Assembly (NCBI GenBank): GCA_026745465.1
Contig: JACYXH010000028.1
Span: 77,501-141,500, forward strand
Source of the DNA: Lota lota
Lineage: Eukaryota; Chordata; Actinopteri; Gadiformes; Lotidae
Length of the DNA stretch: 64,000 bases
Reading direction: 5' to 3'
Position 1 is the stretch's first letter; every line of letters begins with the position of its first letter. The translations under genes were made by a program, and so were the position numbers. The notes beneath the pieces are model-generated. The model did no database searches and was not told where the DNA came from. It saw only the letters and a list, made by a program, of their open reading frames with translations. Of this stretch, positions 4,824 to 63,418 are shown in pieces.

Positions 4824-45581
<40,758 letters not shown>

Positions 45582-54785: not shown

Positions 54786-62392
<7,607 letters not shown>

Positions 62393-62412
<20 letters not shown>

Positions 62413-63418
62413 GTGAGACGATGGTATTTACACCACATGATGCTCCTCATGGCGTACCAGGTGAGACGATGGTATTTACACCACATGATGGTCCTCATGG
62501 CGTACCAGGTGAGAGACGAGGGTATTTACACCACATGATGGTCCTCATGGCGTACCAGGTGAGACGATGGTATTTACACCACATGATGGTCCTCATGGCG
62601 TACCAGGTGAGACGATGGTATTTACACCACATGATGGTCCTCATGGCGTACCAGGTGAGACGATGGTATTTACACCACATGATGCTCCTCCTGGCGTACC
62701 AGGTGAGACGATGGTATTTACACCACATGATGGTCCTCATGGCGTACCAGGTGAGACGATGGTATTTACACCACATGATGGTCCTCATGGCGTACCAGGT
62801 GAGAGACGAGGGTATTTACACCACATGATGCTCCTCATGGCGTACCAGGTGAGACGATGGTATTTACACCACATGATGCTCCTCATGGCGTACCAGGTGA
62901 GACGATGGTATTTACACCACATGATGCTCCTCCTGGCGTACCAGGTGAGACGATGGTATTTACACCACATGATGGTCCTCATGGCGTACCAGGTGAGACG
63001 ATGGTATTTACACCACATGATGGTCCTCATGGCGTACCAGGTGAGACGATGGTATTTACACCACATGATGCTCCTCATGGCGTACCAGGTGAGACGATGG
63101 TATTTACACCACATGATGGTCCTCATGGCGTACCAGGTGAGACGATGGTATTTACACCACATGATGGTCCTCATGGCGTACCAGGTGAGACGATGGTATT
63201 TACACCACATGATGGTCCTCATGGCGTACCAGGTGAGACGATGGTATTTACACCACATGATGGTCCTCATGGCGTACCAGGTGAGACGATGGTATTTACA
63301 CCACATGATGGTCCTCATGGCGTACCAGGTGAGACGATGGTATTTACACCACATGATGGTCCTCATGGCGTACCAGGTGAGACGATGGTATTTACACCAC
63401 ATGATGCTCCTCATGGCT
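62393..63418. repeat. 48-bp minisatellite carrying the exon 6 donor
   Basis: The unit contains CTCATGGCGTACCAGGTGAG and ACGATGGTATTTACACCACA. TACCAG ends at 62412, 62460, 62508, 62558 and on to 63376: 21 junction-like positions in all. Units are 48 bp, except two of 50 bp that have GTGAGAGACGAGG (after 62508 and after 62798). The last exon codons (LLMAYQ) are part of the repeat. Confidence 0.97.

Follow-up and report, generated by a model that had tools for sequence, protein, structure and literature searches.

Exon 6 of lancl2 ends inside a tandem array in which the splice donor of that exon is present 21 times in identical form. The array starts in the end of the exon and runs on into intron 6, its first unit beginning 22 bp inside exon 6. 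The ladder of donors is probably harmless by-catch, and it represents a ready-made natural test of how a cell chooses among identical splice sites. The window, i.e., the whole stretch of DNA that was analysed, comprises 64 kb (C28:77501-141500) of a genome of 575 Mb in 867 contigs; positions are those of the window.

The array at the border of exon 6 and intron 6

61592..62228, + strand: CA-rich simple repeat up to the exon 6 acceptor (TRF; AG scan)
62230..62412, + strand: lancl2 exon 6, 61 codons, ending in HWCHGAPGVVPMLLMAYQ, with the exonic part of repeat unit 1 taking up its last 22 bp (phmmer, acceptor AG, donor)
62391..63417, + strand: tandem array spanning the exon 6/intron 6 border (TRF and unit listing)
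62407..62418, + strand: donor 1, located where the orthologous exon ends, with 62412 as the last exonic base (unit listing; gap-free junction in the LANCL2 alignment)
62455..62466, + strand: donor 2 (62460), which would add VRRWYLHHMMLLMAYQ, 16 aa in frame (unit listing)
62503..62514, + strand: donor 3 (62508), which would add 32 aa in frame (unit listing)
62536..62538, + strand: in-frame TGA arising from the 50-bp third unit, with donors 4-21 downstream (sequence and unit listing)
62553..63382, + strand: donors 4-21 (62558 to 63376), all TACCAG/GTGAGA, with a premature stop if used (unit listing)

TRF reports the array at 62391-63417 with a period of 48, 21.3 copies, 97% matches and a score of 1934. 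The unit listing resolves it into 21 full units, 19 of 48 bp and two of 50 bp, and a partial copy of 15 bp that closes it at 63403-63417. The donor TACCAG/GTGAGA is identical in 21/21 full units, while the units as a whole vary at two substitution sites (C/G and A/C), and units 3 and 9 in addition have GA inserted beside a further change. Between 62407 and 63382 there are accordingly 21 occurrences of TACCAGGTGAGA, their last exonic bases lying at 62412, 62460, 62508, 62558 and onward to 63376. On the + strand of the window only 26 sites score at least as high as the exon 6 donor on an approximate weight matrix, and 21 of these 26 lie within the array. Chance is excluded as an explanation of the array.

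The gene surrounding the array is intact. Exon 6, the sixth of nine, is 183 nt long, ends in phase 0 and matches residues 276-336 of 6wq1 LanC-like protein 2, the human protein (phmmer, E 2.9e-27). The nine exons, whose introns begin with GT and finish with AG, join into an intact protein of 431 aa, whose residues 1-431 align with residues 1-444 of 6wq1 at E 4.5e-209, compared with E 6.2e-154 for the best LANCL1 chain. Both the HWCHG and the GICHG motif are present in this full-length product, which places it in LANCL2. With the first donors of exons 6 and 8, the LANCL2 alignment is free of gaps at the 6/7 and 8/9 junctions. This full-length alignment, free of gaps at these junctions, identifies donor 62412 as the ancestral exon end, and lancl2 looks like a functional gene here.

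Only the first three donors keep the reading frame open (+0, +16 and +32 residues), donors 2 and 3 lengthening the exon by 48 and 96 nt with neither a frameshift nor a stop. An earlier, sequence-only reading of this DNA had described 21 tandem copies of the lancl2 exon 6 donor, and much of that description stands. The copies are real, on which TRF and the unit listing agree; phmmer and the nine-exon model bear out the gene, the exon number and the donor coordinates; and the frame count confirms that donors 62460 and 62508 add exactly 16 and 32 residues. Also correct was the claim that a 50-bp variant after 62508 shifts the frame into a TGA, which lies at 62536-62538, so that donors 4-21 would all lead to a premature stop. 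The limits that had been given for the array, 62393..63418, need adjustment, since it starts at 62391 and ends at 63417 with the partial copy. Likewise, the spacing of 48 bp holds for most donor-to-donor steps, but two of them (62508 to 62558 and 62798 to 62848) measure 50 bp.

The exon 6 donor scores 6.77 on the approximate matrix, and the duplex of its 9-mer with U1 amounts to -11.1 kcal/mol, second in the gene after that of exon 2 (-11.6). Predicted RNA accessibility of the 21 donors is low and much alike (0.000-0.003 for 9 nt). It singles out no donor clearly, and accessibility was rejected as the selector of one donor for want of a clear contrast among the 21.

The acceptor AG of exon 6 ends at 62229 and the previous AG at 61560, which leaves 669 AG-free bases before the acceptor. 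The tract leading to it is a CA tract with 50% pyrimidine in the 20 bases counted. Repeats flank exon 6 at both splice sites, with the CA-rich stretch (61560-62229) on one side and the donor array on the other.

Repeated splice sites beyond exon 6

Exon 8 of lancl2 (68024-68096 in window coordinates, beyond the window; L019:4124-4196) carries a second ladder of 21 donors.

68073-68864 (L019:4173-4964), beyond the window: exon 8 donor ladder, 21 donors at 33/38-bp steps

Its donors read GAAG/GTACC or GACG/GTACC, and the first step is of 33 bp and all others of 38 bp. Use of donor 2 would extend the exon by 11 aa in frame; up to donor 3 the sequence is still open but the frame shifts, and donors 4-21 pass a stop. 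The exon 8 donor is weak, scoring 0.08 on the approximate matrix versus 6.77 for exon 6. In intron 7 of the same gene, a 32-bp array starts 8 bases past the donor. A LanC paralogue (C474, L017, minus strand), whose exon ends in GIYYYLMQ like lancl2 exon 5, has a run of ten CAG/GTGAGT donors that starts with the real one. They are spaced by 33 bp at first and by 25 bp thereafter. This array starts within the intron and shares no more than the bases around the donor, and the frame stays open just for the first two donors, i.e., the real one and the first extra one.

Donor ladders also occur in exons of two unrelated genes, one with a 43-bp unit and five further near-identical 11-mers (L033), the other with a 66-bp unit and three (L058), while a further exon (L024) has a single donor duplicate 69 bp downstream. 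The acceptors of two SH2-domain exons are repeated upstream, one in 32-bp units found by script (L052), the other in a tandem array that matched at 18/24 bases by script and was read by eye (L068). These acceptor repeats are the mirror image of the donor ladders. At a kinase exon on the reverse strand (L079), presumably LATS-like as judged by eye, the intron opens with a 32-bp array that by eye matches the intronic side of the donor, GTGAGCTGG. Within the window, kinase-like coding stretches lie between several arrays on the + strand (35158-41734); read by eye, they presumably resemble a TGF-beta/activin type I receptor.

The lancl2 locus is rich in arrays: those with a period of at least 10 cover 37% of C28:57501-161400 versus 4.75% of 30 SH2-exon loci. 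Recurrence of splice sites was scored where 24 bases were found again within 600 nt at 20/24 identity. In raw counts, two of the eight lancl2 donors recur downstream, as opposed to 718 of 1200 random intronic positions, and none of the seven lancl2 acceptors does so in this 24-base test, exon 4 being left out. For other genes, the survey drew 116 anchor exons from 262 family matches (SH2, 76 of 121; kinase, 40 of 141). The choice was non-random: the SH2 matches were worked through roughly in list order from the first, with some passed over, and the kinase exons were selected as partial matches whose ends probably coincide with an exon border. Donors were called in 107 of the 116 exons by a script using the approximate matrix, and poor calls, with scores down to -8.1, were kept. 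Three of these 107 donors recur, two of them as ladders, versus 69 of 916 nearby intronic positions (raw counts, control positions including simple repeats). Among the acceptors, one of 116 (L052) recurs at 20/24 bases versus 84 of 680 controls; of three more at 18/24 bases, L068 was judged by eye to be a true repeat, and L033 and L058 were judged not to be. A second criterion, the donor 11-mer with at least two further copies, gives 2/107 donors versus 74/1022 control positions and misses partial captures, such as that of the intronic side only in L079, as well as L110, with a short array at the end of the match.

Enrichment of arrays at donors was thus tested and not found, the share of recurring donors being below that of intronic positions nearby. 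Capture of splice sites is rarer than that of the adjoining sequence, which fits arrays that may arise at any place but, at splice sites, are tolerated only where a good first copy stays. Since donors recur less than intronic positions, arrays do not favour donors, and the ladders look like by-catch. Neither is the frame-preserving length of the exon 6 unit remarkable, because the best period is divisible by 3 in 15 of the 48 merged arrays (period at least 10, length at least 100 bp) of C28:57501-161400, close to one third. Repeated donors elsewhere follow no frame rule either (33 then 38 bp in exon 8, 43 in L033, 66 in L058, 33 then 25 in L017). Selection for frame was rejected on the chance-level periods and on the other repeated-donor units of 38, 43, 66 and 25 bp, one of which is divisible by 3.

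Origin of the array and choice among its donors

We consider it likely that the array is minisatellite by-catch in an array-rich locus, with donor 62412 as the main splice site and little or no function. It probably originated when a 48-bp segment was duplicated in tandem, this segment joining 22 bp from the end of exon 6 to the 26 bp that open intron 6. Slippage or unequal exchange would then have raised the number of units to 21, in a locus with more than a third of its DNA in such arrays. The donor would have been caught because arrays arise throughout these introns and reach intron edges, with no part played by selection. The first copy would retain the ancestral donor and exon, the other 20 sitting in a long intron. 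Under exon definition, the acceptor of exon 6 would then pair across the 183 nt of the exon with the closest good donor, making 62412 the main one. Slight leakage to donors 2 and 3 would yield forms longer by 16 or 32 aa, and leakage to donors 4-21 would yield transcripts with a premature stop.

Given that all 21 donors are equal and strong, the choice among them must come mainly from position. PMC9225289 describes exon-defined minigenes in which the upstream member of a pair of identical CAG/guaagu donors was chosen exclusively, and on this ground donor 62412 is expected to dominate. These minigenes are like lancl2 in that identical CAG/GT donors compete for one acceptor under exon definition; they are unlike it in having two engineered donors, 365-nt introns and a strong pyrimidine-rich acceptor, where lancl2 has 21 natural donors and introns of 2-5 kb. 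With its half-pyrimidine CA tract, the exon 6 acceptor may support a weaker exon definition than theirs. The long introns beside exon 6 (about 2.2 and 4.6 kb) are a setting for exon definition, and for near-equal natural donors between long introns the same text describes an upstream preference under exon definition. Among all natural alternative donors, with strengths unmatched, it gives about 60% as preferring the downstream site, in all four intron classes, and its Introduction credits Reed and Maniatis with a preference for the intron-proximal (downstream) site. For the weak donors of exon 8, the weakened minigenes in this text are the relevant comparison: smaller exons kept the upstream preference and larger ones were skipped.

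The sequence-only reading had proposed a built-in ladder that could produce length isoforms or act only as strong decoys. A built-in ladder finds no support, as splice sites are caught no more often than the neighbouring intron and the first-donor product is the full 431-aa protein without junction gaps. An isoform role loses ground, since exon 8, the paralogue and unrelated genes repeat donors too and the exon 8 unit is mostly frame-breaking; decoys that are present but little used seem the better of the two options. That donors 2 and 3 are used together with donor 1 to a useful extent, inserting 16 or 32 residues into LANCL2 between HWCHG and exon 7, is in our judgement unlikely. The donors are identical and strong, and the first two extensions are open and in frame. 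Moreover, human IFI6 offers a precedent in which, according to PMC4526556, two downstream repeat units act as donors and give three mRNA species; that the closest natural precedent does use its downstream units also counts against mere by-catch. However, the insertion would hit a stretch that is gap-free from the product to LANCL2 and LANCL1 chains, the upstream-only use in the minigenes (PMC9225289) points the other way, and divisibility of the unit by 3 is at chance level. Competition by the downstream donors could also make the premature-stop share grow with array length, array polymorphism then setting lancl2 output, and the many U1 sites might in addition alter the processing of intron 6. 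With 18 of 21 exon 6 donors leading to a stop, 18 of 21 passing one at exon 8, where one more (donor 3) is open but frame-shifted, and natural alternative donors of unmatched strength more often using the downstream site, such a length-tuned brake has some appeal. It is nonetheless decidedly improbable in view of the upstream preference of equal donors between long introns, both tendencies being taken from PMC9225289, and of an accessibility that is low and much alike in all 21 donors.

Tandem repeats are a cause of assembly errors, as set out in an Atlantic cod case study (PMC6868369), and the array or its copy number could have been made by mis-assembly. This we regard as highly improbable: the units bear interspersed variants (C/G, A/C and the GA insertion with its neighbouring change) in a non-trivial order, and splice-site arrays are found on several other contigs as well. 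A bolder proposal would be that a few per cent of splice sites genome-wide are ladders and that those of lancl2 exons 6 and 8 are used at a low level, early in-frame steps giving a longer LANCL2 and later ones nonsense-mediated decay, with array length setting output and varying between individuals; as a whole, it is a long shot.

Minisatellites at splice sites of other genes

Intronic minisatellites are known in fish genes, e.g., that of growth hormone in Sparus aurata (PMC3045353). Among the matches listed for literature on fish or cod and on splice donors with repeats, none describes repeated lancl2 donors or gives the genome frequency of such ladders. PMC2812944 describes, for human duplicated genes, internal tandem repeats at exon-intron boundaries, with minisatellite expansion altering splice-site choice and gene structure. 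The lancl2 array likewise reflects minisatellite expansion at such a boundary; unlike the repeats there, which may form novel introns via cryptic sites, it has multiplied the boundary and kept the ancestral intron.

The choice among equal donors has been tested with engineered identical pairs, and the resulting rules differ by setting. Here the ladders are natural and at native loci, with 10 to 21 near-identical donors each and three ladders within a single gene family, and ordinary RNA reads from them could test the proximity rule of exon definition. The ladders would also reveal how much invasion of splice sites by repeats a genome tolerates and, if downstream donors are used, would be a source of heritable, length-dependent isoforms.

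The IFI6 array reportedly consists of 26 copies of a 12-nt unit, starting near the end of exon 2 of this interferon-induced gene. The lancl2 array differs in its 48-bp units, its 21 copies and the loss of frame from the fourth donor on, and a 12-nt unit in an interferon-induced gene is not what is found here. It is alike in that every unit (21/21) holds a donor-consensus site. A minisatellite with multiple splice donors in human IFI6 (6-16, G1P3) has been in print since 1995 (Turri, Cuin and Porter, NAR 23:1854). In IFI6, too, a minisatellite supplies multiple donors (PMC4526556), and the lancl2 array likewise begins inside an exon end and continues into the intron; two extra donors are used in IFI6, and in lancl2 the extra donors that keep the frame are also two, namely the first two. 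At the DNA level, the lancl2 array resembles that of IFI6 and is an independent instance in another gene, with a longer unit. The kind is already known from IFI6, and the added interest is its recurrence: lancl2 alone has two ladders of 21 steps, and further ladders exist in other genes.
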